Assembly (NCBI GenBank): GCA_030950555.1
Contig: JAUZRH010000316.1
Coordinates: forward strand, 1 to 38,705
Origin: Mariprofundus sp.
Lineage (GTDB): Bacteria > Pseudomonadota > Zetaproteobacteria > Mariprofundales > Mariprofundaceae
Direction of reading: 5' to 3'
Length of the DNA stretch: 38,705 nt
Under the pieces are notes generated by a model. It did no database searches, was not told where the DNA came from, and saw nothing but the letters and a program-made list of their open reading frames with translations. Shown piece after piece: positions 8,949 through 35,601 of the stretch (position 1 is the first letter of the stretch; every line of letters starts with the position of its first letter). The translations under genes and the position numbers were made by a program.

Positions 8949-9135
8949 GGGCCGCGGAAAGAATAAATCATCCACCTGCTGGTCTATAAGTCCGCATTCT
9001 GCGTTGCCACAGAGTGACTACTAAAGGCAGTAGGCTATCGCGCCCATTCAGGGCTTGCTTATGCGCTTGATTTGGCGCCTTGAATCCAACTACTATCCTG
9101 CGCATAATTTGGATACTTTATGCTTTCCGTGGCCC
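8949..9135 (-). mobile_element. R1 MITE-like element, copy B (complete, 187 bp)
   Basis: A complete copy in reverse orientation. It begins GGGCCGCGGAAA, ends TTTCCGTGGCCC, and is flanked by TAA on both sides (8946-8948 and 9136-9138). The central hairpin is CTACT (9018-9022) paired with AGTAG (9029-9033). A second small hairpin (GCCC/GGGC around TGAAT on the other strand) lies beside it. It is non-coding and sits between the serS 3' end and the promoter of the DUF1841-ald operon. Confidence 0.85.
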
Positions 9136-9148
9136 TAAAAGGGAAGTC

Positions 9149-9256
9149 GTCATTCACGACCGGATCGGAAATCTATTTGCTGCAGCGTGTGATTGAGAAC
9201 AATGGATTTTTGCCCCACGCCTTCGTGGGGGAGGCAGATTCTTCGCGGGAGTGACG
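9149..9256. repeat. Degenerate R2 repeat
   Basis: CGTCATTCACG near 9149 and GCGGGAGTGACG ending at 9256 are decayed versions of the R2 arms, with a partial palindrome CCCCACGCCTTCGTGGGG between them (about 9212-9229). From here to the serS stop (9453) I see no gene. Confidence 0.45.
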
Positions 9257-9453
9257 AGAAACGACATTTTCAAACTTGCATAGCCATAGCTCAGGGGGAG
9301 GGGTGGAAATTTAACCCCGCAACAAACGCCCCGCAAGACTTGATGCACGACTAAAGTCGCACCCCCGATGTTCAGGTGCCTGAATTACGCTATAATTGAG
9401 CATCACAGAGAACATGCCGCGCCCTTATAATTAACAGTATTCTTTGATCATGA

Positions 9454-10737
9454 TCAGCGGGGTTGAATCGTAGTCATACCACCCATATAAGGCTGAAGGG
9501 CTTTGGGAATAGTAATTGAACCATCGGCTTGATAACCATTTTCTAACACGGCAACCAAACAACGACCAATAGCTAGGCCAGAACCATTAAGCGTTGCAAC
9601 TGGCTGCGGTTTGCCATTTTCATCACGATAACGAATACCCGCACGTCGCCCCTGAAACTGCCCAAAAGTGGAGCAAGAGGAAATTTCACGATACTGCTTC
9701 TGACTCGGTAGCCACACTTCCAAATCAAAGGTCTGTTGAGCTGAAAATCCAACATCACCAGCGCACAGGGAAAGCACCCGATAAGGCAACTCTAATATCT
9801 GCAATACAGCTTCGGCATGGGAGATCAACGCATCCAAATCTGAACGTGCCTGCGCCGGTGTTGTCAAGTGTACCAGTTCGATTTTATCAAACTGATGTTG
9901 GCGAATCATGCCGCGCATATCACGCCCAGCAGAGCCCGCCTCACGTCGAAAACAGGGGGTATAAGCACAATGACGGATTGGTAAGACATCGGCATCGAGG
10001 ATCATATCTTGATAGAGATTTGTCACCGGTACTTCCGCTGTCGGAATAAGAAAAGCATCTTCGCCTTCGAGTTTATAGAGATCCTCTTCAAACTTGGGCA
10101 ACTGGCCTGTACCGGTCATGGTCTTGCGATTAACAATCGCCGGCACCCACACCTCTTCATAACCATGTTTATCGACGTGCAGATCTAACATAAACTGCAT
10201 GAGTGCCCGCTCTAAACGAGCCGCCGCACCTCGCAGCACCGTAAAGCGGGAGCCTGCCAGCTTTGCACCCGCATCAAAATCCAGAATACCCAGTGCCGCA
10301 CCAATCTCCCAATGTGGTGGTACTTCATCACTGCGTGGCTCGCCCCAGCGGCGAAGCTCAATATTATCCGCTTCATCACTGCCATCGGGAACGCTATCCA
10401 GTAGTGGATTGGGAATCTCCAGCAACGCTTCGGAAAAAGCAGCTTCAGCATCACGCGTCAAACTATCCAGCTCTTTAACACGGCCCGATAACGTGCCCAT
10501 TGCAGCCATCTCTGCACTACTATCTTCACCCTGTTTTTTCTTCATGCCGATCTGTTTGGAGACGCGATTACGCTCCGCCTGCAGTGTTTCTGATTCACTT
10601 TTTAACTGCCGCTGATTTTCATCCAGCCCTCGCAAACAAGCCCAAGCACTACCTTCAGCAACCACCGCTTCACCACGGCGAGCCAGGGCTGCTTGCATTA
10701 CCTCATAATCACGCCTTAAGGCTTGCCGATCAATCAT
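9454..10737 (-). CDS. serS: Seryl-tRNA synthetase
   Basis: This 427-residue class II synthetase charges tRNA-Ser. Residues about 30-110 form the tRNA-binding coiled-coil arm. Motif 2 is seen in [15 protein letters not shown] and motif 3 in [18 protein letters not shown], followed by the usual C-terminal [11 protein letters not shown]. Length matches the family. The ATG overlaps the gyrA TGA as ATGA, so it is translated from the gyrA transcript. Confidence 0.96.
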
Positions 10738-13346
10738 TGTTCTGCACCATCACTCTGTTCCGTCTCATTGCTATCATTCGAGACATCACTCTCTGGCTGC
10801 TGGGGTTTATCATCCACCGCCCCATCGACCACTTCTGCATCAGTAACTTTAGTATCTATGACTTCAGCATCATTAGCAGCACCTTCAACCAGCGCCGCTT
10901 CATTCTCATCATCCTCTTCGGGTCGATCCGCGACACGCACCACACCAATCACCCGTTCGCCCTCTTTGCAACCGATCAGCTTCACACCCTGGGTATTGCG
11001 ACCAATCACCGAAACACCATTTAGACGAATACGCACAAGACGGCCTGTATCAGTCATCATCATCACCTGATCATCATCGTGCACCAGTAATGCAGCGACC
11101 ATGTCACCATTGCGGCCACCGGTCTTCAAGCTAAATACACCCTGACCACCGCGTTTTTGCACATTATAATCGCTCACAGAGGTGCGTTTGCCAAAGCCAT
11201 TTTCCGAAACAGAGAGCAGCGTTGCCTGATCGGAAACCAAGGTCATCGAGATCACTTTGCATTCGCCTGGCATACGCATACCGGTAACGCCACGTGTAGA
11301 GCGTCCCATCGGCCGCACATCCGTCTCGTTAAAGCGAATCGCCTTACCGCCACTGGCTGTCAGCATAATATCCTCATCGCCATTGGAGATAAGTACACTA
11401 ATCAGCTCATCACCCTCATCGAGTTTGATCGCAATAATACCATTGGCACGGATATGCTGATATTCTGAAAGGCGCGTCTTTTTCACGACACCATTTTTTG
11501 TGGCCATAATAATATAGCGCTCATCATCAAATTCACGCATCGACAGGGTTGCTGAAATGTGTTCACCCTTTTCGACCGCCAGCAGATTAACCAGTGCTTT
11601 ACCCCGTGCCGTTCGTCCGGCTTGCGGCACTTCATATACCTTTTTACGGAATACACGTCCTTGGTCCGAGAAAAACAGTAGGAAATCATGCGTAGAGGCG
11701 ACCATTAACTGGGTGACAAAATCCTCTTCCTTGGTTGTCATGGCCGTTTTACCCTGACCACCACGCCGCTGGGCGCGATACTCAGAGGTGGCATTACGTT
11801 TAATATACCCTTCGTTGGAGATGGTAACGACCATATCTTCTTCGGTGATCAAGTCTTCTACGGTAAGTTCAGCGCTATCATCCATCATTTCACTACGACG
11901 GGGATCCCCGTACTTATCACGAACCACTTCCATCTCTTCAACAATCACATTCATTAAAAGCACTTCATCAGCCAGGATAGCTTTCAAACCAGCAATCACC
12001 GTCTGAAGTTCATCAAATTCTGCTTGAATCTTCTCACGCTCCAAACCAGTCAAACGCTGTAAGCGCATTTCCAGAATTGCCTGAGACTGTTTTTCAGAGA
12101 GGCCGAAATGATCCATCAAACCAATCTTTGCTTCAGCTGCGGTTTGACTCGCACGGATCAACTTAATCACTTCATCGATGTGATCCAGTGCAATCAGCAA
12201 GCCTTGCAGAATATGAGCCCGCGCTTCTGCCTTAGCCAGATCAAACAAGCAACGGCGCGTAACCACCTGACGACGGTGATCCAGAAAGTGTAGAAGCAGC
12301 TCACGCACACCACACAGCTTCGGCTGTCCATCCAGCAGTGCCAGCATATTACAACTGAAGTTACACTGCAGTTGCGTATGTTTATATAGGTTATTGAGTA
12401 CCACTTCAGGTATCTCATTCCTTTTCAACTCGATGGCAATACGCATACCATCACGATCCGACTCATCACGCAGGTCGGAAATACCATCCATCTTTTTATC
12501 GCGCACTTGATGGGCAATATTTTCAATTAGATTGGCTTTATTCACCTGATAAGGTAGTTCGGTAATAATCAGTGACTGTCGTTTAGTGGTTGCATGCACT
12601 TCAACCAGCGCTCGAGCGCGCATCGTGACCGATCCTCGTCCTGTCAGAAAAGCACTACGCATGCCTGCATGGCCATAGATAAAGCCACCCGTAGGAAAAT
12701 CCGGCCCCGGCATAATTTGCATGAGCTCATCATCATCTATTTCAGGCGTGCGAACCAAAGCGATGGTTGCGTTGATGGTCTCCACAAGGTTATGGGGTGG
12801 AATATTGGTTGCCATACCAACGGCAATACCCTGTGAACCATTGATCAATAGATTGGGAAAACGGGCCGGAAGCACCTTCGGCTCGCGTAGCGATTCATCA
12901 TAATTCGGACCAAAATCTACGGTCTCTTTGTCAATATCGGCCAGTAGTTCACCAGCTAGTCGACTCATGCGGGCTTCGGTATAACGCATTGCCGCCGGAG
13001 AATCACCATCTACCGAACCAAAGTTACCCTGGCCATCAATTAATAGATGACGCATGCTCCATGGCTGAGCCATACGTACCATGGCATCATAAACCGCTGT
13101 ATCACCATGGGGATGATACTTACCAATCACGTCACCGACCACACGTGCCGACTTTTTAAAGGGTTTTTCATAGGTAGAACCCAAATCCTGCATGGCAAAC
13201 AGAATACGCCGATGCACCGGTTTGAGCCCATCACGCGCATCGGGCAGAGCACGCCCAACGATCACGCTCATTGCGTAATCAAGATAAGAGCGTCTCATCT
13301 CATCTTCAATCAGCACCGGTTCTGAAGAGTTCAGCGTTTCATCCAT
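10734..13346 (-). CDS. gyrA: DNA gyrase subunit A
   Basis: This 870-residue subunit cuts and rejoins DNA in the A2B2 gyrase that introduces negative supercoils. The start at 13346 is preferred: AGAGG lies 6 bases upstream and the protein then begins [20 protein letters not shown]; an upstream in-frame ATG at 13400 adds 18 residues unlike GyrA. The quinolone-region sequence is [19 protein letters not shown], the catalytic Tyr is in [10 protein letters not shown], and the GyrA box QRRGGQG is intact, separating gyrase from topoisomerase IV. The tail is strongly acidic. A tRNA-Arg gene lies 63 bases upstream on the same strand, and serS follows by overlap. Confidence 0.96.
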
Positions 13347-13373
13347 ATTCAACCTCTTTTGCATATTGCATCC

Positions 13374-13398
13374 GAGAAGCCGAGCTACATTGCTTCTC
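13374..13398 (-). other. Hairpin between tRNA-Arg and gyrA
   Basis: GAGAAGC (13374-13380) and GCTTCTC (13392-13398) form a 7 bp stem with an 11-base loop. It lies in the 63-base space between the tRNA-Arg 3' end and the gyrA start. There is no T-run, so it does not look like a full terminator; it may be a weak terminator or processing site. Confidence 0.35.
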
Positions 13399-13409
13399 AT
13401 TTATATAAT

Positions 13410-13486
13410 TGGTGCTCTCGACACGATTCGAACGTGTGGCCTGCCGCTTAGGAGGCGGCCGCTCTATCCTGCTGAGCTACGAGAGC
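13410..13486 (-). tRNA. tRNA-Arg (anticodon CCT)
   Basis: The minus strand folds into a standard cloverleaf. The acceptor stem is GCTCTCG/CGAGAGC, the anticodon stem is GCCGC/GCGGC with loop CTCCTAA (anticodon CCT, reading AGG), and the T arm contains TTCGAAT. The 3' CCA is encoded (13410-13412). gyrA follows 63 bases downstream on the same strand. Confidence 0.95.
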
Positions 13487-13571
13487 TGAAGAAATCATCT
13501 TTTATTTTGACGCTCGAAGCATAGCGTCATCACCGCGCATCTGCACGATGAAATCATCATCGCACATCTTA

Positions 13572-13762
13572 GGGCCGCGGAAACAAACAATCATCCCATT
13601 CTGCTAGTCTAAAAGCTCGCCCTCTGCATTGCAGTATCAGCCTTCTGTTGGAAGTGATGCCTATCGCACCCATTCAGGGCTTGCTTATGCTCCCAATACG
13701 GTGCTTTGAATCCGCACTTTTATCCTTCGCAGGGTTGGAATACTTATTTATTGCCGCAGTTA
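13572..13762 (-). mobile_element. R1 MITE-like element, copy C (one end decayed)
   Basis: A reverse-orientation copy that begins GGGCCGCGGAAA with TTA at 13569-13571. The far end has decayed to TTATTGCCGCAGTTAG, so the second target copy is not clean. The centre folds as ATCA (13636-13639) with TGAT (13655-13658) and CTTC (13642-13645) with GAAG (13651-13654). It ends about 8 bases beyond the apt stop codon. The rest of the gap from tRNA-Arg to apt holds an inverted repeat GACGCT/AGCGTC near 13509-13528 and nothing else recognisable. Confidence 0.75.
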
Positions 13763-13769
13763 GCCCGAA

Positions 13770-14297
13770 TCAGCTGTAGTGAAGTAGGCTTTTCACGGCT
13801 ATATCAGGCAAAGCATTGCGCCCCTTCAGAAAATCAAGCTCAATAGCAAATAGACACGCATCAACGGTAGCACCCAATTGCTCAACAAGCTTCACGGTTG
13901 CAGAGGCTGTACCGCCAGTAGCTAGCAGATCATCGACAATCACCACACGGTGTCCACAATTAAGCGCCCCTTTATGAACCTCCAAACAGTCCATGCCATA
14001 CTCAAGTTCATACTCAACGCTGTGTACTGCTGCGGGTAATTTACCCGGCTTGCGTACGGTCACCAAGCCAATACCCAGCTTGTAGGCCAAGGCCGCGCCA
14101 AAGATAAAGCCACGCGACTCAATACCAACAAGCGCATCCACATCAGGACCAATCAGTGCTGCCATCTCATCTACTGCCATAGAAAAAGCCTTTCCATTAG
14201 CCAGCAGAGGGGTGATATCTTTAAAAACAATACCCGGTTTGGGGAAATCAGGCACATCTCGTATAAAATCTTGCCATACTATGTTGCTATCAGGCAT
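13770..14297 (-). CDS. apt: Adenine phosphoribosyltransferase
   Basis: This 175-residue enzyme salvages adenine to AMP using PRPP. The PRPP-binding motif is VVIVDDLLATGGTA; the N-terminal IRDVPDFPKPGIVFKDITPLL and the flexible-loop segment RKPGKLP are typical of Apt. The ATG at 14297 is chosen because AGGAG lies 8 bases upstream; an in-frame TTG just before it would add one residue. The start overlaps the rpoS stop by one base (TGATG), so translation is probably coupled to the sigma factor gene. Confidence 0.95.
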   Translation of the reverse strand: MPDSNIVWQDFIRDVPDFPKPGIVFKDITPLLANGKAFSMAVDEMAALIGPDVDALVGIESRGFIFGAALAYKLGIGLVTVRKPGKLPAAVHSVEYELEYGMDCLEVHKGALNCGHRVVIVDDLLATGGTASATVKLVEQLGATVDACLFAIELDFLKGRNALPDIAVKSLLHYS

Positions 14298-15121
14298 CAA
14301 ATAATCTCCTTAAAATCAATATTTTCACCGACCACCTGCTTGCGCAGCTTGTGAAGCGCCTGCACCTGAATCTGACGAATTCGTTCACGTGTCAATTTCA
14401 GCTGCTCTCCCACCTCTTCCAATGTCCAACACTCTCCACCCATCAAACCATAACGCATGCGCACAACTTCTCGCTCACGGCTACTCAATTTCTCCATCCA
14501 TTTATTCAGCATCTCGCCACGCAGCCGCTGCTGCATTTTTTCACCCGGCTGATCAGCCAACACATCAGCTACCACATCATGCAGTGTAAACTCACCACCA
14601 TCATGTAGCAGCTCATCAACACTCTCGGTTTTGACAGCTATATGCATCAACTCCTGAACACGAAGCAAGGATATATTCATCGTGATGGATACTTCCAACT
14701 CTGTCGGTTCGCGATTCAAATCAACGCGTAGACGATTGGTATGACTCATCAGTGCTTTATACTCTTTCACCACATGCACAGGAATCCGAATAGTACTGGC
14801 CAAATTCATAATAGCCCGTTCTACTGACTGCCTGATCCACCAAGTCGCATAGGTGGAAAAACGACATCCATGGGCTGCGTCAAACTTCTCCACCGCCCGA
14901 ATCAAGCCCAGATTCCCCTCTTCGATGAGATCAGCCAAAGCAACACCACGATTGGCATAACGGCGGGAAATTTTCACAACCAAACGCAAATTAGCATGAA
15001 CCATAAAGTGACGTGCTTCTTCATCACCTGCTGCTATGCGCTTAGAAAGAGCCACCTCTTCACTGGCATCAAGCAACTCATAACGCGATATTTCACGCAT
15101 ATAAATAGCCATAGGATCCAT
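14297..15121 (-). CDS. rpoS: RNA polymerase sigma factor, RpoS type
   Basis: This 274-residue sigma-70 family protein begins almost directly at region 1.2 (DPMAIYMREISRYELL). Region 2 is HANLRLVVKISRRYANRG...LIEEGNLGLIRAVEKFD and RFSTYATWWIRQSVERAI; region 4.2 is WTLEEVGEQLKLTRERIRQIQ. Sequence and neighbours (nlpD-like and pcm upstream) point to RpoS, the general stress and stationary-phase factor. E. coli RpoS is about 330 residues; the usual acidic N-terminal extension is absent. GGGAG lies about 6 bases before the ATG. The upstream DNA is open in the same frame for 31 codons and ends in TAG directly before this ATG. Confidence 0.88.
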   Translation of the reverse strand: MDPMAIYMREISRYELLDASEEVALSKRIAAGDEEARHFMVHANLRLVVKISRRYANRGVALADLIEEGNLGLIRAVEKFDAAHGCRFSTYATWWIRQSVERAIMNLASTIRIPVHVVKEYKALMSHTNRLRVDLNREPTELEVSITMNISLLRVQELMHIAVKTESVDELLHDGGEFTLHDVVADVLADQPGEKMQQRLRGEMLNKWMEKLSSREREVVRMRYGLMGGECWTLEEVGEQLKLTRERIRQIQVQALHKLRKQVVGENIDFKEII

Positions 15122-15213
15122 CTAAAGCTCCCGCTTTTCAATCGTCATCTCAGGTGCATCAGGCACGATACCATCATCAAAGCTATCATAGGGGTGAAGT
15201 GTCCACCATCTGA

Positions 15214-16014
15214 TCAACGAGGTAAATAGGCAAGCGGATCAACGGGTGTACTGCCGAGCCTGACTTCAAAATGTAAATGTGGTCCGGTCGCCCTTCCCGT
15301 ATGGCCTACACGTGCGATAAGCTCCCCTGCGTGCACTTTATCACCTTTGCGAACCAGATTGCGCTGATTATGTGCATAGGTGGTAAAAACACTGTGTGGA
15401 TGGCGCACAATAATCAGATTTCCATAACCACTAAGGCGTGAATCTGAATAGACTACCACACCGCTGGCAGAAGCATGCACGGCTGTCCCCTCAGCAACAC
15501 CAATATCGATGCCATCATGCATTCGACTACCACGACGCCCGAAACGACTGGTAACAACACCTTTAACAGGCCACAATAGCCGCCCTTTCATCACCATAGC
15601 AGCCTTTCGTTTTGAACTCTGTTTGCGATGCTTACGAAGCCTTTTCTTTTTGATCTTTCGCTTTACATGATGGGACCCATGAATCTTTTTCTTTTTTACT
15701 AAGGAACGGCGCTTACTGAGCCGGTGCATCACACCTTTGCTTGTATGCGGTGCACGGCTGGTAATGTACAAGCGCTGACCCACATAAACCGTATAGGGAG
15801 AGTGTAACCTATTACGCTGGGCAATCAGCTTATATTTAACACCAAATCGCTTACCAATACGGTAGAGTGTATCACCACGACGTACCGTATACACCTTCGC
15901 CTTACTGTGTGAGCTATGCGATACATGATGTGTTGTAGGTTTTACATGGGTTGAAAAGCAGGCTGATAGCGATACTATCATCAACAAGCTGAGCAACCGT
16001 AAAGCTACACCCAC
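15214..16014 (-). CDS. LysM-LytM lipoprotein, NlpD-like M23 peptidase
   Basis: This 266-residue envelope protein has a lipoprotein signal with lipobox LSAC (Cys19), a LysM peptidoglycan-binding domain (about residues 41-85, VYTVRRGDTLYRIGKRFG), a very basic Lys/Arg/His linker (about 86-142) and a C-terminal LytM/M23 domain. The zinc and catalytic motifs are complete: HxxxD at His166-Asp170, His215, and HLH at 246-248. NlpD of E. coli is degenerate at these sites and only activates amidases, so this protein may cleave cross-links itself. The GTG at 16014 is chosen: it gives a clean signal peptide and GGAGG lies 12 bases upstream; an ATG at 16065 lies deep in the upstream gene. It overlaps that gene by 10 bases. 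Confidence 0.85.
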   Translation of the reverse strand: MGVALRLLSLLMIVSLSACFSTHVKPTTHHVSHSSHSKAKVYTVRRGDTLYRIGKRFGVKYKLIAQRNRLHSPYTVYVGQRLYITSRAPHTSKGVMHRLSKRRSLVKKKKIHGSHHVKRKIKKKRLRKHRKQSSKRKAAMVMKGRLLWPVKGVVTSRFGRRGSRMHDGIDIGVAEGTAVHASASGVVVYSDSRLSGYGNLIIVRHPHSVFTTYAHNQRNLVRKGDKVHAGELIARVGHTGRATGPHLHFEVRLGSTPVDPLAYLPR

Positions 16015-16577: not shown

Positions 16578-16605
16578 CCAAGAGCGCTTAACGCTAACTG
16601 CAGGA

Positions 16606-17274: not shown

Positions 17275-17347
17275 AACTCACTCACCTGTAGATAGATTCG
17301 GGGAGAAAATAATGAACCACTAGGATGCACTATCATCAATATTAATT

Positions 17348-17424: not shown

Positions 17425-17438
17425 TTTGTAAAAAGCGG

Positions 17439-18274: not shown

Positions 18275-19006
18275 TTAGCAGCGCTCAACTAAGCGCCCAT
18301 TATGCAGATAAAGAATACGATCACAACGCTTGGCAAGCGCCATACTATGCGTAACCATCACCACAGCAGCCTGTTCTTCACGGCAGAGCTGTTTCAATAT
18401 TCCAAATACTTCCAAAGCCGTTTTTTCATCAAGATTACCTGTCGGCTCATCTGCCAAAAGTAACCGTGGTTTGGCAACTAAGGCCCGGGCTACGGCAACA
18501 CGCTGTGCCTCACCGCCCGATAATTTGGAGGGTACATGCAATTGTCGCTCGGCTAAGCCAAGCCGAGCCAGCAAAGCCGCAGCCCGAGCTTGCCCCTCTT
18601 TCTCTGAACAGCCTTGCACAAGCAGTGGTAGCGCCACATTTTCTAACGCGGTAAGCTCAGGAATAAGGTGATGCGCCTGATACACAAAGCCAATTTTTTG
18701 ATTGCGTAGCTGCGCTTGTCTGCTACTACTTAAGGCTTGAATCGGCTCACCATCAAGCCGTATTTCACCACTATCTGGACGTTCCAGCGTACCTAATATC
18801 TGCAACATCGTGGACTTTCCCGACCCCGACTCGCCCACCACTGCTAGAAATTCACCTTCTTGCAAACTAAAAGACAAACCTTGTAATATATTCAGCATAC
18901 CCGCCGGTGCGGCAAAGCCTTTATGCAGTTCCGTCACGTCAAAAAGAGCGTCTTTCACTGTGCTCTCCGTGCTACTTACACGACCAGCCATGGCTGTTTT
19001 ACTCAT
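18275..19006 (-). CDS. lolD: Lipoprotein-releasing ABC transporter ATPase LolD
   Basis: This 243-residue ATPase powers release of outer-membrane lipoproteins from the inner membrane. Walker A is GESGSGKST, the signature is LSGGEAQRVAVARAL, and Walker B is LLLADEPTGNLD. The EPTGNLD ending and the position next to lolC identify it within the MacB/LolD group. The ATG overlaps the end of lolC by 8 bases. The N-terminal 20 residues are extra compared with typical LolD; a later start cannot be excluded. Confidence 0.92.
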   Translation of the reverse strand: MSKTAMAGRVSSTESTVKDALFDVTELHKGFAAPAGMLNILQGLSFSLQEGEFLAVVGESGSGKSTMLQILGTLERPDSGEIRLDGEPIQALSSSRQAQLRNQKIGFVYQAHHLIPELTALENVALPLLVQGCSEKEGQARAAALLARLGLAERQLHVPSKLSGGEAQRVAVARALVAKPRLLLADEPTGNLDEKTALEVFGILKQLCREEQAAVVMVTHSMALAKRCDRILYLHNGRLVERC

Positions 19007-24950: not shown

Positions 24951-25256
24951 GGCATCCTTCATTATCAGGTTCACACATTAAGGCTTTCCGATGAAGATGG
25001 AAAAGGCTTCGTCAAATAGTTGATTTCCTCACCCCCCAACCCTCTCCCGGAGGGAGAGGGAGCAGAGTCTCGGCTTGCAAAAACGGGCTTCCATTTTAAG
25101 ACGGGACAATAATGATGATAACAGGCTTTGCGAGGTCAAACAGAGCATTTTTTAGAAATGGATTTCCGACTTAACCTTCGGGAAGCTTGAACGGCGTTCC
25201 CGCTACGCGATAGGATTAGCTAAACAGATCGTGTATTCCCAATCCGGTCGGGAATG
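24951..25256. repeat. Composite dispersed repeat R4, copy 1
   Basis: This stretch matches 38161-38640 in several long blocks: GCATCCTTCATTATC, the low-complexity CCCTCTCCCGGAGGGAGAGG palindrome, CTCGGCTTGCAAAAACG, TTTTAAGACGGGACAATAATG, GCGAGGTCAAACAGAGC, and GGCGTTCCCGCTACGCGATAG. The order of some blocks differs between copies. A loose R2 palindrome (ATTCCC-N9-GGGAAT) is near its end. Confidence 0.6.
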
Positions 25257-25460: not shown

Positions 25461-25475
25461 GCGCCGCAAATATAA

Positions 25476-25663
25476 GGGTCTCGTAAATAATAAGCTATTC
25501 TAGTTACATGTAGGATCAGAGCTCGCATTCAAGGCGTATAGTGACGCATAAGCAAATCATGAATGAATGCGACAGTCTTCATCTGCAATAGAAGACTGCT
25601 TCTGCAACGCAGAAGATGAGTTTTTAGACCCGTAGAAATGGATAATTTATTTTTTCGTAGCCC
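25476..25663 (+). mobile_element. R1 MITE-like element, copy D (188 bp)
   Basis: A forward copy, somewhat diverged at its left end (GGGTCTCGTAAATAATAAG) and ending TTTTTTCGTAGCCC. TAA flanks it on both sides (25473-25475 and 25664-25666). Its centre is the best hairpin of the family: CAGTCTTC (25573-25580) with GAAGACTG (25591-25598), a perfect 8 bp stem. It ends 19 bases before the typA ATG, leaving only the ribosome site between. Confidence 0.8.
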
Positions 25664-27500: not shown

Positions 27501-27507
27501 ATAATCA

Positions 27508-27534
27508 GGCAGGCCTTCGGGCCTGCCTTTTTTT
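27508..27534 (+). terminator. Rho-independent terminator of typA
   Basis: GGCAGGCC (27508-27515), a TTCG tetraloop and GGCCTGCC (27520-27527) form a perfect 8 bp GC-rich stem, followed by seven T (27528-27534). It starts 7 bases after the typA stop. Confidence 0.95.
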
Positions 27535-27760
27535 GCTCTATCGCAGACAACTGTTGAAATAATTTTAATTCTCTTTCAAAGGAGCCACTTGCAAAACTCT
27601 GGGTGGATGAGTGACAATTCCACCTCGAGCGCAACTTAGGATGGAATGAAGGGCATGGTGATTCCATACGCTCAATGCAGCCTAGAAATGCGCCGGAATG
27701 GGGCAGTTCATCGTCGCTCAGGGGTTTTGCTTGGGTGCTCAAAGGAGGCATGTTTATTCC

Positions 27761-28285: not shown

Positions 28286-28304
28286 CGCCTTCGCGGGAAT
28301 GACG
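28238..28304. repeat. R2 palindromic repeat overlapping the tadA 3' end
   Basis: CATCATTCCCG (28238-28248) and CGGGAATGACG (28294-28304) are R2 arms 67 bp apart, with one mismatch. The tadA stop codon lies inside. Bases 28325-28415 hold two near-inverse CACAAAG/CTTTGTG repeats like those near 5160. Confidence 0.65.
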
Positions 28305-28429
28305 AGCAAAGATATATTCAAGCTTGAATCACTATATCTTCCTTCTGCTCTCTTTGTGGCTTTGTGCCTTCGTGGTAAAACTACATAACCGACTAACCAC
28401 AAAGACACCAAAGCTCTTAATAGCCACCC

Positions 28430-29074: not shown

Positions 29075-29163
29075 AATTACTCACCTTTTGTTGCTAAGAG
29101 TGCAATGATAATGCGCTCCACACCTCTGATTCATTTTCTAAAGTTAAAACTTCCACTGGGGAT

Positions 29164-29177
29164 GGGACTTTAGTCCC
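29164..29177. repeat. Short perfect palindrome
   Basis: GGGAC (29164-29168), TTTA, GTCCC (29173-29177). A related GGGACTTTAGACCC occurs near 32017. It sits in the 177-base gap between rlmE and the exporter; nothing else is visible there. Confidence 0.4.
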
Positions 29178-29251
29178 GTAATACATCTATCCATCACCCC
29201 ATGTAAACCGCTGAACTATCGCATCTTTTTTGAGACAACCCCATTGGCTTG

Positions 29252-30022
29252 CTATTCTTTCATACGCCAGCCAATATACCAGAGGCGCCAGCAGGCAATA
29301 AAAGTTACCACAACAGTGAACAACACCACGCCCATAGAAGCTGACGGATCCGTGTCACCAACACCTAGAAAACCATAGCGGAAGCCATCCGTCAGATAAA
29401 AGAAGGGATTGGCATGATTTATCATTTGCCAGAAGGGAGGTAACTGCTGAACAGAGTAGAAAACACCCGAGAGGAAAGTTAAGGGTAGAATGATAAAGTT
29501 CGTCACCATCGCCACCTGATCAAAATCACGCGACCACATACCACCCAGCAGACCCATTCCGCCCATAATAATCGATGCGCTCAAGCCATATAATATCACT
29601 ATACCAGGATGCGGTATCGAAATATCGACAAAAGGCACAAGCACCATTAAAAAAACGCTTGCAACTACAACGGCACGTACAACAGCAGCCGCCAGAAATG
29701 CCATAACCACCTCAAAGGCTGAGAGCGGAGCCATCAACAGGTAAATATGCATACCCATCACTTTTCCCATAATCATAGAACTAGAAGTATTGGCAAAGGC
29801 ATTTTGCATCATCGCCATCATCGCCAAACCGGGCACTAAAAAAGTAAAATAATCCACATCCATCCCCGGCACATGTCGATCTCCCATCGCATAACGAAAT
29901 ATCACCAGATAAAGCATCGCTGTTAGGGCCGGCGTAACAATAGTTTGCATTTTCACCTTTAAAAAACGGCGCGTTTCACGCGCAAATAACGTCCAGGCAC
30001 CAAGCAGATTAGACTGACTCAT
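29252..30022 (-). CDS. ABC-2 type exporter permease, YadH-like
   Basis: This 256-residue membrane protein has six hydrophobic segments in the ABC-2 layout. The C-terminal segment ILPLTFLSGVFYSVQQLPPFWQ and NPFFYLTDGFRYGFLG are typical of the YadH/NodJ-type permeases. Its start overlaps the ATPase stop by 4 bases (ATGA), so the two make one exporter. The substrate is unknown; relatives export polysaccharide, lipid or drug-like compounds. Confidence 0.88.
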   Translation of the reverse strand: MSQSNLLGAWTLFARETRRFLKVKMQTIVTPALTAMLYLVIFRYAMGDRHVPGMDVDYFTFLVPGLAMMAMMQNAFANTSSSMIMGKVMGMHIYLLMAPLSAFEVVMAFLAAAVVRAVVVASVFLMVLVPFVDISIPHPGIVILYGLSASIIMGGMGLLGGMWSRDFDQVAMVTNFIILPLTFLSGVFYSVQQLPPFWQMINHANPFFYLTDGFRYGFLGVGDTDPSASMGVVLFTVVVTFIACWRLWYIGWRMKE

Positions 30023-30969
30023 GGCTTATCCCCCACTTCACTCTCCTGCCGCCGGGTAAGACGTAAAAAGACATCTTCCAAATCTTCACTGCGCACAGCT
30101 GCATCTATCGGTATACCAAAACGCGCAACCCCCGCTTGATAGGCTAGATGAAAACTAGAACCACCATTCTCTTCCCTGCTCAACTTCAGGCAGACACCCT
30201 CATCACAAACCGTAGGTTCAAAAGCTGACAACACATCACCATCCTCTTTTGTTAAAAGAACTGGCTTGTCATATTTCAAATAGAGCGTCGAACTGGCAAT
30301 ATCATGCATCAATGTCTGCATCGGCTGGGCTGTTAACAACTGTCCTCTATCAATAATGGCCACGTGACCACATAACTCTTCGGCTTCATCCAGATAATGC
30401 GTGGTCAGCAGAATAGTCGTACCAGCCGCATTTAACTCCCGCATAAAATCCCATAAACGCCGCCTTAACTCTACATCAACCCCTGCCGTCGGCTCATCCA
30501 GAATCACCAGCTGCGGACGATGCACCAGAGCCTGGGCCACCAAGAGACGACGACGCATACCACCCGAGAGTTGCCTTGCCCGCTTACCCGCATGATCCGT
30601 CAACTCCAAACGATCAAGCAACTCCTCCAACCATGCTTCATTAGTCTTGCAGCCAAATAGACCTGCCGTCACACGCAATATTTCGCGCGGCGTAAAAAAA
30701 GGATCAAAGGCGATCTCTTGCGGCACCACACCCAAACGCCGCTTACACCAGTTTCGCTCGCTAAACAGATCATGACCAAGCAGCGTAACCTTGCCACTAC
30801 TCGGTCGCACAGTATCAGCCAAAATATTGATCAGGCTACTTTTACCCGCGCCATTAGGTCCCAAAAGCGCATAAAAACTCCCTTTCGGAACGGTCAGCGA
30901 CACATCACCCAAGGCGCGATTGCCATTTCCATAGATTTTACCCAAGCCATTAATTTCCAATGCATTCAT
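30019..30969 (-). CDS. ABC exporter ATPase, YadG-like
   Basis: This 316-residue protein has a full nucleotide-binding domain: Walker A GPNGAGKSS, Q-loop GVVPQEIAFD, signature LSGGMRRRLLVAQAL, Walker B LVILDEPTAGVD, H-loop TTHYLDEAEE. A C-terminal extension of about 90 residues follows, as in the YadG/DrrA group. It precedes the permease gene and is divergent from rpmB, with back-to-back promoters in the 123-base gap. Confidence 0.92.
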   Translation of the reverse strand: MNALEINGLGKIYGNGNRALGDVSLTVPKGSFYALLGPNGAGKSSLINILADTVRPSSGKVTLLGHDLFSERNWCKRRLGVVPQEIAFDPFFTPREILRVTAGLFGCKTNEAWLEELLDRLELTDHAGKRARQLSGGMRRRLLVAQALVHRPQLVILDEPTAGVDVELRRRLWDFMRELNAAGTTILLTTHYLDEAEELCGHVAIIDRGQLLTAQPMQTLMHDIASSTLYLKYDKPVLLTKEDGDVLSAFEPTVCDEGVCLKLSREENGGSSFHLAYQAGVARFGIPIDAAVRSEDLEDVFLRLTRRQESEVGDKP

Positions 30970-31029
30970 AGCCGTGCACCCTACCCTGCAAGTAGAACGA
31001 CCACCACACTGAAAGCACTATACTACTAA

Positions 31030-31059
31030 AATATAGCTTGCATAGTGCATCTAGTGCAA
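31030..31059 (-). promoter_or_regulatory. Candidate promoter for the ABC exporter
   Basis: On the minus strand TTGCAC (31054-31059), 18 bases, TATATT (31030-31035). It overlaps the plus-strand candidate for rpmB, so the two genes may compete for polymerase. Confidence 0.35.
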
Positions 31060-31066
31060 CTAAAGT
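31038..31066 (+). promoter_or_regulatory. Candidate promoter for rpmB
   Basis: TTGCAT (31038-31043), 17 bases, TAAAGT (31061-31066), leaving a leader of about 20 bases before the GGAGG site of rpmB. A direct GTGCA-CTAGTGCA repeat lies in the spacer. Confidence 0.35.
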
Positions 31067-31092
31067 GCGCGCCGTTTTCAATGGAGGTTATC

Positions 31093-31284
31093 ATGGCAAA
31101 ACGTTGTGAAGTATGTGGAAAAGGCCCAATGAGCGGCAACAATGTCAGTCACGCACACAATACGACCAAACGTCGTTTCCTGCCCAACTTGCATCAGGTT
31201 CGCGCAGTGGTAGACGGCCAAACACGCCGCCTAAAAGTTTGCTCTAGCTGTCTGCGTTCAGGCAAGATTCAAAAAGCAGCCTAA
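31093..31284 (+). CDS. rpmB: 50S ribosomal protein L28 (zinc-binding form)
   Basis: This 63-residue protein is a large-subunit component. [23 protein letters not shown] is the standard L28 start, and CEVC near the N-terminus plus CSSC near the C-terminus form a zinc ribbon, the C+ version of L28. GGAGG lies 6 bases before the ATG; a longer frame from 31045 is not needed. rpmG (L33), usually next, is missing: a terminator follows 3 bases after the stop, so rpmB is transcribed alone. Confidence 0.95.
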
Positions 31285-31287
31285 ACC

Positions 31288-31321
31288 AAAAGGTCTTTTT
31301 CCTATTTGAAAAAGACCTTTT
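31288..31321 (+). terminator. Terminator of rpmB
   Basis: GGTCTTTTTC (31292-31301), a 6-base loop, and GAAAAAGACC (31308-31317) form a perfect 10 bp stem, extended by AAAA before it and TTTT after it. The A/T flanks make it usable on either strand. Confidence 0.9.
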
Positions 31322-31596
31322 CTTCAGGCTGCAGCGTAACTTCTATTAAAAAAAGAGGGGATACTACCCTTTTCTTTATGATTAGAATCCATAAATCTGC
31401 TACTACTTCAATAATGATAGCGTCTCTGACGTGATTTCTCAGGTGCCCCACTGAAATAAAAGATTCTACCGAAATAGCGCGGCAATGAATCACTATTCCG
31501 ATATTTTTGTTTAACTCGATATGCCAGTTTTGTAGTGGAAAATCGAAGGACATACCTGAACTCAGCTAGATTATGCTAAGACGCAAACAAAACCAC

Positions 31597-31680
31597 CGCT
31601 TCGACCCTTAACGACACCCATAAAGCAGTCAAAGACTTTCCACCACAGAGTCACGAAGGGCACGAAGATAATCATTATTA
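31597..31680. repeat. Dispersed repeat R5, copy 2
   Basis: Second copy of the unit at 24846-24930, about 84 bases, same strand. From 31322 to 31596 I see no gene or repeat; an 83-codon minus frame there looks non-coding. Confidence 0.55.
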
Positions 31681-31719
31681 CGGCATCCTTCACCAGTGAG
31701 CAAAAGTAGTTTAAACTTT

Positions 31720-32168
31720 GGCTTCCCTTTTAAGACGGGACAACAATACACATCTCTACGCATGGTAAGGTGATTTAAGTATTACGCCCGTCATTCCCGT
31801 GAAGACGGGAATCCATTGGTTTTATGTTAGCAGAGCGTTTCAGATATGGATTCCCGATTCAACCCTCGGGAATGACGGGCGGGCGTATTTCGTTATGCTC
31901 GGACATGACAAAAAAGCTCATTCAATTTCTAAGTAGGAAGTCTGAAAACCCAACACAAACCTTCCTTCGTGATGGACTCCATTCTCAGACAAGCTCCTAT
32001 TTTCAATGGTTCTGGGGGCGGGACTTTAGACCCGCAAGACTTTGCTGTTGTTCTGTGACTAAAGGCGCTTTCCCAAAATAACACTTAAAGGATCAAGGCT
32101 TGTTGCGCGCACCTCCACCATGATGTAAGCCGTTGTAATCATGGCTGTCCCATCTTAAAAGGGAAACC
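31720..32168. repeat. Possible second mobile unit R6, copy 2
   Basis: GGCTTCCCTTTTAAGACGGG (from 31720) and the inverse GTCCCATCTTAAAAGGGAAA (from 32147) bound 449 bp. Inside are an R2 unit (31789-31877) and a decayed palindrome near 32017. No open frame resembles a protein. Confidence 0.4.
31789..31877. repeat. R2 palindromic repeat, complete
   Basis: Perfect 11 bp arms CGTCATTCCCG (31789-31799) and CGGGAATGACG (31867-31877). An exact ATTCCC-N8-GGGAAT lies at 31793-31812, and ATTCCCGATTCAACCCTCGGGAAT in looser form at the other end. Confidence 0.7.
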
Positions 32169-32218
32169 TTATTTTAGAATCCCCAAACCTCATCTTCAAA
32201 TAAGCGAGCGATGCGTTA

Positions 32219-32408
32219 GGGCTGCGGAAATAAATAATTGTCCCGTTATGCGAAGGATAAGAGTTCGGATTCAAGGCGCAGTATTTGACGCATAAGCAAG
32301 CCCTGAATGGGCGCGATAGCCTACTGCCTTTAGTAGTGACTGATGCTGCAACGCAGAAGGCGAGCTTTTAAACCAACAGAATGGGATGATTATTTGTTTC
32401 CGTGGCCC
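32219..32408 (+). mobile_element. R1 MITE-like element, copy E (complete, 190 bp)
   Basis: Forward copy from GGGCTGCGGAAA to TTTCCGTGGCCC, with TTA on both sides (32216-32218, 32409-32411). The outer 32 bases of the two ends pair at 25 positions, and most mismatches are transitions that would be G-U pairs in RNA. Central hairpin CTACT (32321-32325)/AGTAG (32332-32336). It ends 3 bases from the ridA TAG stop. Confidence 0.88.
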
Positions 32409-32411
32409 TTA

Positions 32412-32795
32412 CTAGTGTGCGGCAACAAGATCCATTTCAACTAGGGCACCTAGAGGTAAGGCCGCCACAGCGACCGTCGCCCTAGCAGGTCGATGGCTTC
32501 CCAACCAGTTTGCATACACTTCGTTGATAAGCGGAAAATCGCCCATATCAGTCAAGAAAATATTCACCTTCAAAATAGCTGAGAGATCAACGCCAGCTTC
32601 CTGCAATACAGCAGTTAAATTTTTTGTGACCTGTTTAGCCTGCGCAACGACATCGTCCCCAACCAACTTACCTGTTACCGGATCCAAGCCAATCTGACCT
32701 GATGCATAAACAGTCCCCTGATATGCAACGGCTTGACTATAAGGCCCGACGGCTTCTGGCGCCTTCACACTATTAATCATGCTAATTTTATTCAC
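32412..32795 (-). CDS. ridA: RidA family enamine/imine deaminase
   Basis: This 127-residue trimeric enzyme hydrolyses reactive enamines and imines such as 2-aminoacrylate. Family marks are APEAVGPYSQAVAYQG, VYASGQIGLDP, VNIFLTDMGDF and RPARATVAVAALPLGALVEMDLVA, including the substrate-binding Arg. The GTG start overlaps the rsh TGA (GTGA), with AGGGGG just upstream; an ATG five codons in is possible. R1 copy E begins 3 bases beyond its stop. Confidence 0.93.
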   Translation of the reverse strand: MNKISMINSVKAPEAVGPYSQAVAYQGTVYASGQIGLDPVTGKLVGDDVVAQAKQVTKNLTAVLQEAGVDLSAILKVNIFLTDMGDFPLINEVYANWLGSHRPARATVAVAALPLGALVEMDLVAAH

Positions 32796-34927
32796 AACTC
32801 CCCCTTATTCTCTTGCGTAGCTTTTCTTCTAAACAGGTTGCGCAATGCCATGGAGAAAGGCTTACCCACAGGCTTATCGCTTAAACCAACACGATTACGA
32901 CGCACCACACTGGTAACACCCTCTACGGATTTAATGGTTCGCATCACTTGTGCTAAGTGCTGACGACCCTCCACCTCAACAAGAAACAGCAACTCTGTCA
33001 CCGCACCAGCCCGCTGCGTTAGCTTCAAATCTTCAATACTGGAGCCTGTTTCGGCTATTTTACGTGTCACATCAGCCAACATGCCACGCACATTACGCGA
33101 GTGCACCTCAATACCAGTTCTAAACAGCTCCCCAGCTTTAGCTTCCCACTCCACATCCAAACTACTATTTTCACCACCCTCAGCCAATACAGGGCATTTA
33201 CGATGATGCAAAATCACCCCTTCACCAGCAATCACACGTCCTAACACAGGGTCTCCCGGCACAGGATGACAACAGTTGGCAGCCCTCATCATGGATCGCT
33301 CCGTTCCCTTAAACATCAAGGGCAAGAAATGACTCCGCTTGGTCGCTTCCAATAGCGCACTAATGTCTATCTCGCCATCTCCCAAACGAGATTTCAACTC
33401 CAAAAGGTCCACACAACCCAGCTGCTCAACCAAACCTTTACCGACATCTTTTCTACCGATCACTTCCGTTAAAATTTTCTCACCTATAGAAATACTATTT
33501 TCTCGTTCTTGACGACGTAACCAATGACGTATCGCCTGGCGGGCGCGCGGTGTCTTTACATATTGTAGCCACTGCCGGCTCGGCGACTGATCAGGACTGG
33601 TCATTATTTCTATCTGATCGCCATTATGTAAACGCGATGAAAAATCAGCTACCTCACCATTAATCCTTACACCAACGCAGTGGTGACCAATATCAGTATG
33701 CACGGTATAAGCAAAGTCCAACGGTTTGGCACCGCGCGGCAAAGGAAAAATATCCCCATCGCGACTAAATACATACACCTCTTGAATAAATAGATCCAGG
33801 CGAACATTTTCCAAGAATTCACCTGGATTATCTGTTTCCTGAATCAATTCGGTTAATTGACGAAGCCATTTAAAGCTCTCTTCACCAGCCGTCTTCCCCT
33901 CTTTATAAGCCCAATGAGCCGCCACACCATCCTCTGCATAACCATGCATCGCTTGCGTACGAATCTGAATCTCTATACGGAAATTTTCAGGCCCGATAAC
34001 AGCCGTATGAAGGGATTGATAACCATTGGGTTTAGGCAGTGCGATATAGTCTTTAAATCTACCCGGCACAGGCCGATAGAGACTATGCACAATGCCGAGT
34101 GTTTGATAACAGGTACTCATATTTTCAACAATGACACGAAAGGCAACCAGATCAAAAATATCATCGAAATTCACATGTTTTCGCTGCATTTTTTCATGAA
34201 TACTATAAAGATGTTTCATGCGACCATGTACTTTAGCCTGCAACCCCTGACGCAGCAGTGCTTCCTGAATCAGCAGTTCCAAACGCTCTCTGGTTTGGTT
34301 CAGAAGATCAAAACGGTCATGCATCTCATCAAGTAGTGACTTATAGGCACTAGGCTCCAGATGAGAGAAAACCAGATCCTCCATCTCTTGCTTAACCCAA
34401 TGGATCCCTAAGCGGTGCGCTAAGGGTGCATAAATTTGCAGCGTCTCTTCGCCGATACGGCGACGCTTATGCTCAGGCATAAAACCAAGCGTTCGCATAT
34501 TATGCAAACGGTCAGCCAATTTCACAATCAATACGCGCAAATCTTTAGCTGTTGCCAAAATCATCTTGCGAAAGTTTTCAGCCTGCTTCTGTTCAGAGGA
34601 GTTAAAATGAATTTGGCCAATTTTGGTCACACCATCCACCAAACTAGCCACATTTTCACCAAAATTGGTTTTTATGTCATCCAGCGTAATGTCAGTATCT
34701 TCAACCGTATCATGCAGTAGACCGGTAATAATGGAGGCCTCATCCATCCTCAAACTAGCCAGAATAGCGGCAACAGCTAGAGGATGGATAATATAAGGCT
34801 CACCTGAACTTCTTACCTGATCTGCATGGGCATGTGCCGCAAAGACATAAGCACGGTTAATCAGGTCTATATTGGCCTTAGGAGCATAAGAAGATACACG
34901 CTCTGTAATTTCAAATATACGACTCAT
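32792..34927 (-). CDS. spoT: Bifunctional (p)ppGpp synthetase/hydrolase (Rel/SpoT)
   Basis: This 711-residue protein makes and degrades (p)ppGpp. The hydrolase HD site is intact (His48 in IIHP, HDTVED at 72-77), and the synthetase site carries RFKD at 290-293 and NGYQSLHT at 301-308; RxKD marks bifunctional enzymes rather than RelA. A TGS domain (about 384-443), a zinc-finger-like segment (CCHPVPGDPV...HRKCPVL) and a C-terminal ACT domain follow. It is encoded between rpoZ and ridA, close to the E. coli gmk-rpoZ-spoT order. A hairpin lies directly before the start. Confidence 0.95.
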   Translation of the reverse strand: MSRIFEITERVSSYAPKANIDLINRAYVFAAHAHADQVRSSGEPYIIHPLAVAAILASLRMDEASIITGLLHDTVEDTDITLDDIKTNFGENVASLVDGVTKIGQIHFNSSEQKQAENFRKMILATAKDLRVLIVKLADRLHNMRTLGFMPEHKRRRIGEETLQIYAPLAHRLGIHWVKQEMEDLVFSHLEPSAYKSLLDEMHDRFDLLNQTRERLELLIQEALLRQGLQAKVHGRMKHLYSIHEKMQRKHVNFDDIFDLVAFRVIVENMSTCYQTLGIVHSLYRPVPGRFKDYIALPKPNGYQSLHTAVIGPENFRIEIQIRTQAMHGYAEDGVAAHWAYKEGKTAGEESFKWLRQLTELIQETDNPGEFLENVRLDLFIQEVYVFSRDGDIFPLPRGAKPLDFAYTVHTDIGHHCVGVRINGEVADFSSRLHNGDQIEIMTSPDQSPSRQWLQYVKTPRARQAIRHWLRRQERENSISIGEKILTEVIGRKDVGKGLVEQLGCVDLLELKSRLGDGEIDISALLEATKRSHFLPLMFKGTERSMMRAANCCHPVPGDPVLGRVIAGEGVILHHRKCPVLAEGGENSSLDVEWEAKAGELFRTGIEVHSRNVRGMLADVTRKIAETGSSIEDLKLTQRAGAVTELLFLVEVEGRQHLAQVMRTIKSVEGVTSVVRRNRVGLSDKPVGKPFSMALRNLFRRKATQENKGEL

Positions 34928-34931
34928 TTCT

Positions 34932-34953
34932 AGCTACAGTTTAGGCTGTAGCT
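34932..34953 (-). other. Hairpin covering the rpoZ-rsh junction
   Basis: AGCTACAG (34932-34939) and CTGTAGCT (34946-34953) form a perfect 8 bp stem with a 6-base loop, in a 33-base gap. It ends 4 bases before the rsh start, where no strong ribosome site is visible. It may tune rsh translation relative to rpoZ, which is inference. Confidence 0.45.
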
Positions 34954-34960
34954 GTGACAA

Positions 34961-35221
34961 TTAAGCTTCGCCGCCTTCAAGCGCTTCATTCATATCAGCC
35001 TGTTTACGACGCTGTTGACTCTCTTGATCATAAAGTACTTCCCAAGAGATAAAACCTTCACCCATTTCACGCAGAGCATTGACAGTTGGCTTATCGCCCT
35101 CAACATCCATCAGCGCAGGCAGACCATCTTGCAGCTGACGCGCCCGTCTTGATGCTAGCAGCACCATCTCAAATCGATTTGGAAAATAACGAATACAATC
35201 TTCAACTGTTACGCGAGCCAT
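34961..35221 (-). CDS. rpoZ: RNA polymerase omega subunit
   Basis: This 86-residue subunit helps polymerase assembly and forms part of a ppGpp-binding site. MARVTVEDCIRYFPNRFEMVLLASRRARQL is the standard start, with a polar helical tail. GGAGG lies 8 bases before the ATG. In many relatives gmk ends just before rpoZ; here 380 bases with an R1 insertion separate them. Confidence 0.95.
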   Translation of the reverse strand: MARVTVEDCIRYFPNRFEMVLLASRRARQLQDGLPALMDVEGDKPTVNALREMGEGFISWEVLYDQESQQRRKQADMNEALEGGEA

Positions 35222-35406
35222 ACGGCTTACCTCCGGATAAAACGAAGCTCGAATCTAGGAAAAACCGAATAAAAAGCAACACAACTGTTCAAAACCGATT
35301 ACAATCAATTTTTTTTCACGGCAAAGGGCGCAAAGGTAGACAGAGGAATGCATTACAATTGAGGCATCCTTCACCAACCATAAAAAATAGTTGACGCTTT
35401 ACGTTA

Positions 35407-35601
35407 GGGCCACGGAAATAAATAATTATCCCGTTATGCGAAGGATAAGAGTTCGGATTCAAGGCGCAGTATTTGGCACATAAGCAAGCCCTGAATGGGC
35501 GCGATAGGCAGTCATGTTGCTTTTAAAAAGTGACTGATGCTGCAACGCAGAAGGCGAGCTTTTAAACCAACAGAATGGGATGATGTGTGTTTCCGTAGCC
35601 C
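35407..35601 (+). mobile_element. R1 MITE-like element, copy F (complete, 195 bp)
   Basis: Forward copy from GGGCCACGGAAA to TTTCCGTAGCCC, flanked by TTA (35404-35406, 35602-35604). The right-hand TTA is, on the minus strand, the TAA stop codon of gmk. Outside the centre it is nearly identical to copy E; its central hairpin is different, CAGTCA (35509-35514)/TGACTG (35531-35536). The remaining gap 35222-35403 holds a GGCATCCTTCACCA...ATAGTTGACGC segment shared in inverse with 38455-38500. Confidence 0.9.

Follow-up and report, generated by a model that had tools for sequence, protein, structure and literature searches.

The window examined here is one complete contig (JAUZRH010000316.1, 38,705 nucleotides) of a metagenome-assembled genome of Mariprofundus sp. 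(2.58 Mb in 316 contigs, 88% complete), and it carries a family of short repeats, R1, with each end of the contig falling within an R1 copy. The R1 copies are non-autonomous insertions of the miniature inverted-repeat transposable element (MITE) type with 3-bp target-site duplications, and in related genomes one conserved core is found between different transposon ends. The interpretation favoured here, with a probability of roughly three in four, is that R1 elements combine a module of terminal inverted repeats (TIRs) with a folded core that is under selection, and that they are moved in trans by a DDE transposase.

A first-pass annotation of the window, made from the sequence alone, had described five full-length R1 units ending in GGGCYRCGGAAA and two edge pieces, and all of these are present. 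All five full units and the piece at the left edge are recovered by a profile search, and the right-edge piece is a motif match judged by eye. Allowing at most one mismatch, GGGCYRCGGAAA occurs at 11 sites in the window (mean 0.46 and maximum 3 in 100 shuffles), ten of which are R1 ends. An isolated one-mismatch site at 18487-18498 lies outside every R1 match and is probably due to chance. At the boundaries first assigned, the flanking triplets are TAA/TAA, TTA/GCC, TAA/TAA, TTA/TTA and TTA/TTA, in agreement with the earlier count of four units bounded by identical TTA or TAA words. The fifth, the unit beginning at 13572, has lost three terminal bases (GGG), and once its end is moved to 13759 it is also flanked by TTA/TTA; identical TWA words thus flank all five full units. 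The annotation saw no transposase in the window, and none was found among the 26 window open reading frames (ORFs) scanned, out of 54 listed, many of them spurious.

In the whole genome, 541 exact GGGCYRCGGAAA ends were counted, against 2 for the reversed pattern (751 against 48 with one mismatch), so the genome-wide check that the annotation had proposed turned up many further copies. A chance origin of these ends is excluded by the window shuffles and the reversed-pattern controls together. Exact ends rise above control in few of the 73 other genomes of the family, most clearly in G063 (10 against 0) and G073 (12 against 0). Individual copies were examined in 80 contigs plus the window, 704,861 bases in all or 27% of the genome; R1 hits were the reason for choosing 75 of these contigs, and densities refer to this hit-selected set. 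It contains 173 non-redundant R1 copies (83 full, 60 cut by contig edges and 30 internal partials), which make up 3.8% of its bases. The sizes are narrowly distributed, with 81 of 82 paired units at 158-161 or 175-196 bp and a single 247-bp composite.

Flanking words are identical at 52 of 76 copies, whereas in 20,000 shuffles of the right-hand words among copies the number averaged 31.5 and never exceeded 48. Rare words are duplicated as well (CAA/CAA twice, TCA/TCA once), and the target context shows a weak CC-TWA-GG preference. For 14 of 75 R1 junctions, an uninterrupted paralogous site is present in the same genome (60-base flanks, no gap at the junction), the best with 100% identity across 113 bases; the site for L125 is weak (70%), that for L185 is an R1 copy within R1, and several lie in other repeats. 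These uninterrupted sites indicate that the R1 copies are insertions with target duplications, and with the flank-word permutation they bear out the 3-bp TWA duplication that the annotation had proposed. Its suggestion of comparing empty sites in relatives was answered only within the genome, as other species are too diverged for base-exact empty sites. The gmk-rpoZ spacer loci fetched from nine relatives gave no R1 profile match. With TIRs, target-site duplications, short length, no transposase gene and high copy number, R1 has the properties of a MITE. The earlier use of that label was apt for the short TIR-bounded body and the many copies, but it was incomplete, having missed a conserved, structured body.

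That body folds in the order stem P2, an internal loop of AAGGC and AACG, stem P3 and an apical hairpin that is usually AUAGC...GCUAU. The two loop words are nearly invariant: AAGGC occurs in 88 and AACG in 96 of 100 distinct R1 copies, and among 61 diverged copies, aligned by a covariance model and unselected by these words, they occur in 56 and 58, respectively. The stems covary heavily. In an alignment of 24 diverse copies (27 representatives, three dropped because their ends ran into foreign sequence), RNAalifold predicts -33.1 kcal/mol and 40 pairs for the forward strand against -2.5 kcal/mol and 16 pairs for the reverse. Compensatory double changes affect 16 of these 40 pairs (65 cells against 29.2 when shuffled), the short form alone has 57 pairs, 19 of them compensated (50 cells against 19.1), and 24 diverse cores selected by the words AAGGC and AACG (from 28, with four near-duplicates dropped) show double changes in 21 of 25 pairs (119 cells against 36.5, with slid controls at no more than 46); in no case did any of 500 shuffles reach the observed value, but since the structures come from the same alignments and the shuffles are blind to relatedness, these figures are not exact probabilities. 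The core alignment likewise folds better forward (-24.6) than reverse (-2.6). A test that needs no alignment gives the same picture, in that stem halves pair better with their own partners than with partners taken from other elements (permutation p 0.0002 for both P2 and P3), the own partner being strictly the best in 6 of 24 elements for P2 and 11 of 24 for P3. For this test the motifs were located in 83 of 88 elements and 24 diverse ones were taken, two of which were kept even though AACG had been mis-placed.

The fold is better on one strand. The copy at 32219-32408 reaches -83.7 kcal/mol forward (z = -7.9) and -56.1 reverse (z = -3.0), and the same preference for the forward strand is seen in 91 of 100 distinct full-length copies, exceeding 10 kcal in 44, as well as in 12 of 12 copies from relatives. 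G.U pairs outnumber A.C combinations 120 to 21 overall; counting only pairs whose commonest form is Watson-Crick, a strand-neutral comparison, leaves 81 cells against 19, and 20 pairs against 5 (p = 0.004). A mutation bias was considered as the source of this excess and rejected, because unpaired columns show no such direction (35 against 41), although paired columns do (80 against 55). Covariation and the G.U signature would fit a single strand of DNA as well as an RNA.

When the family was searched with a covariance model built on the short form, 27 of its 74 genomes (source included) and 8 of 14 genera gave matches, with 38 in G063, 32 in G068, 25 in G067, 23 in G018 and 19 in G094; at most 40 candidates were scored per genome, and opposite-strand matches of palindromic copies are included in the counts. 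The 61 diverged copies, from 12 genomes, were read with their flanks (66 matches minus five opposite-strand duplicates), and 52, with lengths of 155-162, were assigned by end sequence to six types, with nine not assigned. The single copy of the R1-like type, F1, has identical flanking words, as do 13 of 18 copies of F2 (GGAAYGNN; mostly TTA or TAA) and 15 of 17 of F3 (GGYAACKCG; TAA or TTA). For F5 (GGARGNNCTGA) the words are identical in 5 of 8 (CTAG twice, TTAG, ATAG, CTAA), for F6 (GGGCACCTC) in 6 of 6 (TTAA twice, CATA, TATA, TTTA, TCTA), and for F7 (TAYCCCRACCC) in 2 of 2, both CTAG, a word that is its own complement and could therefore belong to the repeat itself. The duplication is thus the 3-bp TWA for F1, F2 and F3, and 4 bp for the other end types.

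Outside the family, the core model gave one match, in Catenovulum sediminis (51.5 bits), among 18 bacterial loci that had been fetched only for a SpoT-like gene; this core sits in an inverted-repeat element whose arms start with CTAG. Among viral contigs preselected by core patterns, the model matches five loci (L349, L350, L360, L364 and, at 34 bits, L423). Four patterns were scanned, the first giving 16 loci and four of the model hits, and the others 68 new loci and one hit; no viral contig had the exact 25-base end pattern. At L364, a core-like hairpin (1776-1868) lies between two viral-contig genes, with no transposon ends recognisable by eye. Nothing in plasmids matched an R1-type element, an F3-type element, L349 or L350; one partial Catenovulum match to L076 came from a locus without a core-model hit, and phages gave no match to an R1-type element. 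Rfam 15 has no match for the window copies at gathering score or for eight diverged loci at E values of at most 1, and none at the core positions of the outside loci L076, L349, L350, L360 and L364. Some weak Rfam hits were set aside, all being below gathering scores and none on an R1 copy.

The annotation had guessed at a mobiliser of the IS5 family, naming the IS1031 group; support for the family is indirect and comes from a sister end type that carries the core as well. In relatives, the F5 ends (GGARGTGCTGAW) also occur on four IS5-type loci, three of which encode IS5-family transposases (NF033581; 324-341 bits against a cut-off of 140), while the fourth has a shortened transposase under the cut-off. 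L224, one of these loci, contains a 1,155-bp F5-ended IS5-family element with CTAG at both flanks. In L216, a small element of 160 bp has the core between F5 ends and is likewise bounded by CTAG at either flank. When 18 transposase-family loci (PF13586 or PF13359 hits) were searched for the core, the only match was in L216, by way of its small element. The F5 ends are thus shared with IS5-family elements from which the core is absent, and so the core is not their interior. R1 differs from these IS5-family elements in its 3-bp duplication, and R1 ends were found around no IS5-type locus; by analogy with F5, the R1 mobiliser is probably another IS5-type element.

Searches for that mobiliser covered several possibilities. 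None of the five transposase families PF01609, PF13359, PF13586, PF13340 and PF00665 is matched in this genome, as far as its 88% completeness reaches, and no GGGCYRCGGAAA end pair was seen around the PF13586 and PF13359 loci of relatives. The idea of hidden autonomous copies whose ends lie 0.3-6 kb apart was rejected, as the nine loci opened are nested repeat insertions, truncations or neighbouring copies. Unpaired ends in G063 and G073 were considered as ends of long elements, and three proved to belong to short derivatives; four ORFs near such ends were scanned, giving non-transposase domains for two and no Pfam match for the other two. Of 517 called ORFs in the examined contigs, only five (285-1088 aa) resemble another at 60% identity or more.

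In the model proposed here, a DDE transposase, most likely of the IS5 family, would act in trans on the outer TIRs, insert at TWA and leave the 3-bp duplication. The inner core would form a long hairpin, more stable on one of the strands and kept by selection, and this core may have come to lie between several ends by divergence of the ends, by their replacement or by both. It may act as an RNA made from the folding strand, with the AAGGC/AACG loop bound by some factor, and the folded core may help copies to spread or persist. Several observations weigh against this reading. No transposase turned up for GGGCYRCGGAAA ends, and the full insertion sequence with such ends that the annotation had suggested looking for was not found. 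Only one of the four F5-ended IS5-family elements has identical flanks, the others having CTAA/CAAA, TTAG/CTAA and TTAG/CTAG. Flanking words are unequal at 24 of 76 R1 copies, most commonly TAA/TTA, with the outer T and A nearly fixed. Recombination among near-identical copies is unsupported as the cause, since matched words are found in 22 of 33 copies in the crowded group and 30 of 43 elsewhere; recombination, mis-assembly or strain mixture may still be possible sources of the unequal words. The single folded copy of the common 187-bp type has no strand asymmetry (-74.5 against -75.4), the strand test is weak in the core alignment (30 against 9 cells, 11 against 4 G.U pairs, p = 0.12), and two other repeats of this genome also favour one strand (R2 in 22 of 28 copies, R3 in 6 of 9); given R2, asymmetry of folding energy is not special by itself. 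An orientation bias is absent near gene 3' ends (9 of 20). Any two of the F1, F2 and F3 ends agree at 13 of 20 positions, a level reached by 0.2-0.3% of shuffles, which suggests that among the TWA types the ends diverged and were not swapped. Finally, end-only derivatives of 62-89 bp exist in G073 and G063 (L198 3905-3966, L201 958-1046, L204 5458-5545), with flanks TAA/TAA, TTA/TTA and TGA/TTA, so that two of the three have identical TWA words. The core is therefore not required for movement itself, and a protective or regulatory role is likelier for it than one in transposition chemistry.

If R1 were an ordinary MITE, it would be an internally deleted insertion sequence with a functionless body, its stems being leftover inverted repeats. 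The layout is the classic one (short, intergenic, with TIRs and a target-site duplication), the derivatives just described keep the ends and mostly TWA flanks, and bacterial MITE transcripts are generally long stem-loops according to passages of one source (PMC2229807). Such an origin is nonetheless improbable, in that inverted repeats alone are not expected to yield so many compensated core pairs, near-invariant loop words and the same core between different ends, and the F5-ended IS5-family elements are without it. Another alternative is a single old lineage, in which the ends would have diverged alongside their transposases around a conserved core and would never have been exchanged. Besides the likeness of the TWA types, F5 and F6 are borderline, with 11 of 20 positions shared with F2 or F3 (0.6-2% of shuffles, with 21 pairs tested; 0.6% for F3 with F6, about 2% for F2 and F3 with F5). 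Against this stand the ends of F7 and of the Catenovulum element, which resemble no other end type, the identity of F5 ends with those of core-less IS5-family elements, and duplications that vary in length and sequence. A single lineage accordingly keeps a substantial chance, though one short of even.

Other alternatives concern what the folded strand is and what keeps it. It might be single-stranded DNA, for example a hairpin recognised by a protein at replication forks, where G.T would be tolerated, and the lack of strand preference near gene 3' ends is in its favour. However, 3- and 4-bp target duplications are typical of double-strand DDE transposition, not of single-stranded DNA transposases, and around the Y1 genes fetched from this genome R1 is absent to a distance of 1.5 kb. 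The folded strand is probably RNA, and single-stranded DNA, while it deserves some weight, is unlikely. The RNA might instead have been recruited by the host, as an ERIC-like regulatory element whose copies in operons or untranslated regions act on mRNA and whose fold is kept by host selection. None of the 83 full copies lies within a called ORF of at least 100 aa, by a crude gene call that is blind to genes cut by insertion, and where a copy is no more than 150 bp from a gene 5' end, its folding strand is the mRNA strand in 11 of 14 cases. There is no clear preference near 3' ends or between tandem genes (13 of 23), with called genes on both sides for only 44 of the 83 full copies; the window copies beside gmk and ridA are in antisense orientation; and the covariation divides whole subfamilies, not single loci. 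Host recruitment therefore appears rather doubtful. Movement by a Y1 tyrosine transposase, as for REP/RAYT elements, would suit a palindromic, extragenic and abundant repeat, and Y1_Tnp genes are present in seven of eight genomes examined, including four different RAYT-like genes in this one (contigs C61, C261, C84 and C69 of G000). REP/RAYT elements have no target duplications, whereas R1 has real ones, rare words included, and its units are about 160-195 bp; none of the fetched Y1 loci has R1 within 1.5 kb. With target duplications present and no Y1 transposase associated, this origin is largely refuted and hardly credible. An integron attC site was also considered and rejected. Such sites are defined by complementary RYYYAAC and GTTRRRY boxes and by integrase insertion, whereas the conserved core words AAGGC and AACG, in an alignment read by eye, do not form complementary attC boxes, and the flanks carry target duplications.

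Among known miniature elements, the ERIC (or IRU) repeats of enterobacteria resemble R1 as intergenic elements with TIRs and a full-length stem-loop, and the Correia/NEMIS elements of Neisseria resemble it in size, TIRs, target-site duplication and hairpin. No ERIC core is known to lie between different ends, nor is a near-invariant internal loop known from Correia/NEMIS. PIF/Harbinger Tourist MITEs resemble R1 in their TWA duplication, in ends that start with GGGCC or similar and in a palindromic extended target, and differ from it in being eukaryotic. Parts of the literature give 3-bp target-site duplications for canonical Harbingers (PMC12730594) and up to 711 ERIC copies in Photorhabdus (PMC10969869). 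Passages of a further source (PMC2229807) place TA at the ends of most ERIC-type bacterial elements and describe Correia/NEMIS as up to about 200 bp, with TIRs, a target-site duplication and a hairpin transcript that RNase III is proposed to cleave. The ERIC target of TA differs from the TWA or 4-bp words of R1 and its kin, in a comparison made without aligning ERIC sequence, and Correia/NEMIS differs in its TA ends and its other sequence. Given the known stem-loop transcripts of MITEs and the copy number of ERIC, neither the abundance of R1 nor its hairpin is new. The novelty, as far as can be seen, lies in a heavily covarying core, its loop near-invariant, that is held between several different transposon ends. 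Among the matches listed in open-licence literature on transposable elements of Mariprofundus or Zetaproteobacteria, or on MITE covariation, structured RNA or unrelated interiors, there was no report of such elements.

Table 1. R1 copies in the window and the duplicated target words beside them.
Position	Strand	Feature	Remarks
1..137	+	R1 copy, left part cut by contig edge	core 16-102; followed by TTA; profile search
8946..8948		target-site duplication TAA	left of 8949 copy
8949..9135	-	R1 full copy, 187 bp	core 8982-9098; folding strand minus, by orientation to other copies
9136..9138		target-site duplication TAA	right of 8949 copy
13569..13571		target-site duplication TTA	left of 13572 copy
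13572..13759	-	R1 copy, GGG lost at one terminus	core 13607-13725; end 13759, not 13762
13760..13762		target-site duplication TTA	right of 13572 copy
25473..25475		target-site duplication TAA	left of 25476 copy
25476..25663	+	R1 full copy	core 25513-25629; lowest of five profile scores
25664..25666		target-site duplication TAA	right of 25476 copy
32216..32218		target-site duplication TTA	left of 32219 copy
32219..32408	+	R1 full copy, 190 bp	core 32255-32373
32409..32411		target-site duplication TTA	right of 32219 copy
35404..35406		target-site duplication TTA	left of 35407 copy
35407..35601	+	R1 full copy, 195 bp	core 35443-35567
35602..35604		target-site duplication TTA	right of 35407 copy; guanylate kinase stop codon (TAA on minus strand)
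38679..38705	+	R1 left end, remainder cut by contig edge	preceded by TTA (38676-38678)

Two of the window copies touch genes directly. The right-hand duplication of the copy at 35407 is the stop codon of guanylate kinase, so that the insertion lies exactly at this codon, and the copy at 25476 overlaps the first codons of a BipA open frame called at 25638. The SpoT protein of the window is 80-81% identical to homologues of Mariprofundus erugo, M. ferrooxydans PV-1 and a Zetaproteobacteria metagenome-assembled genome.

The two other repeats are found near R1 and within it. The hairpin repeat R2, with ends GAGCCAATTGC...GCAATTGGCTC, occurs in the window at 27561-27730, in L178 at 6507-6667 and in L159, and has 39 matches of more than 100 bases in the examined contigs. 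Nesting goes both ways, with R2 copies inside R1 units and an R1 unit (L122 8395) inside an R2-related copy. R3, GGCATCCTTC...GAAGGATGCC with internal CCCTCTCCC hairpins, occurs in the window at 5414-5559, 24965-25060, 35363-35406 and 38223-38500 and has 172 BLAST matches in the examined contigs; it is also nested in R1 and abuts the copy at 35407.

The distribution of the core may have a wider meaning. It is possible, at somewhat below even odds, that a structured module, most likely an RNA, is itself a long-lived selfish unit that has been spreading through Proteobacteria by taking up the ends of one insertion sequence after another (TWA, IS5-type CTAG and other 4-bp types), its fold being kept while the ends are disposable. 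R1 is in any case a concrete high-copy example of miniature elements in an iron-oxidising lineage, and one in which contigs break inside the repeats. In an ordinary MITE the ends are conserved and the body decays; here the body is conserved across the family, with few hits beyond it, and the ends differ. That combination makes the body a candidate for a functional RNA (or single-stranded DNA) family with a defined, testable motif.

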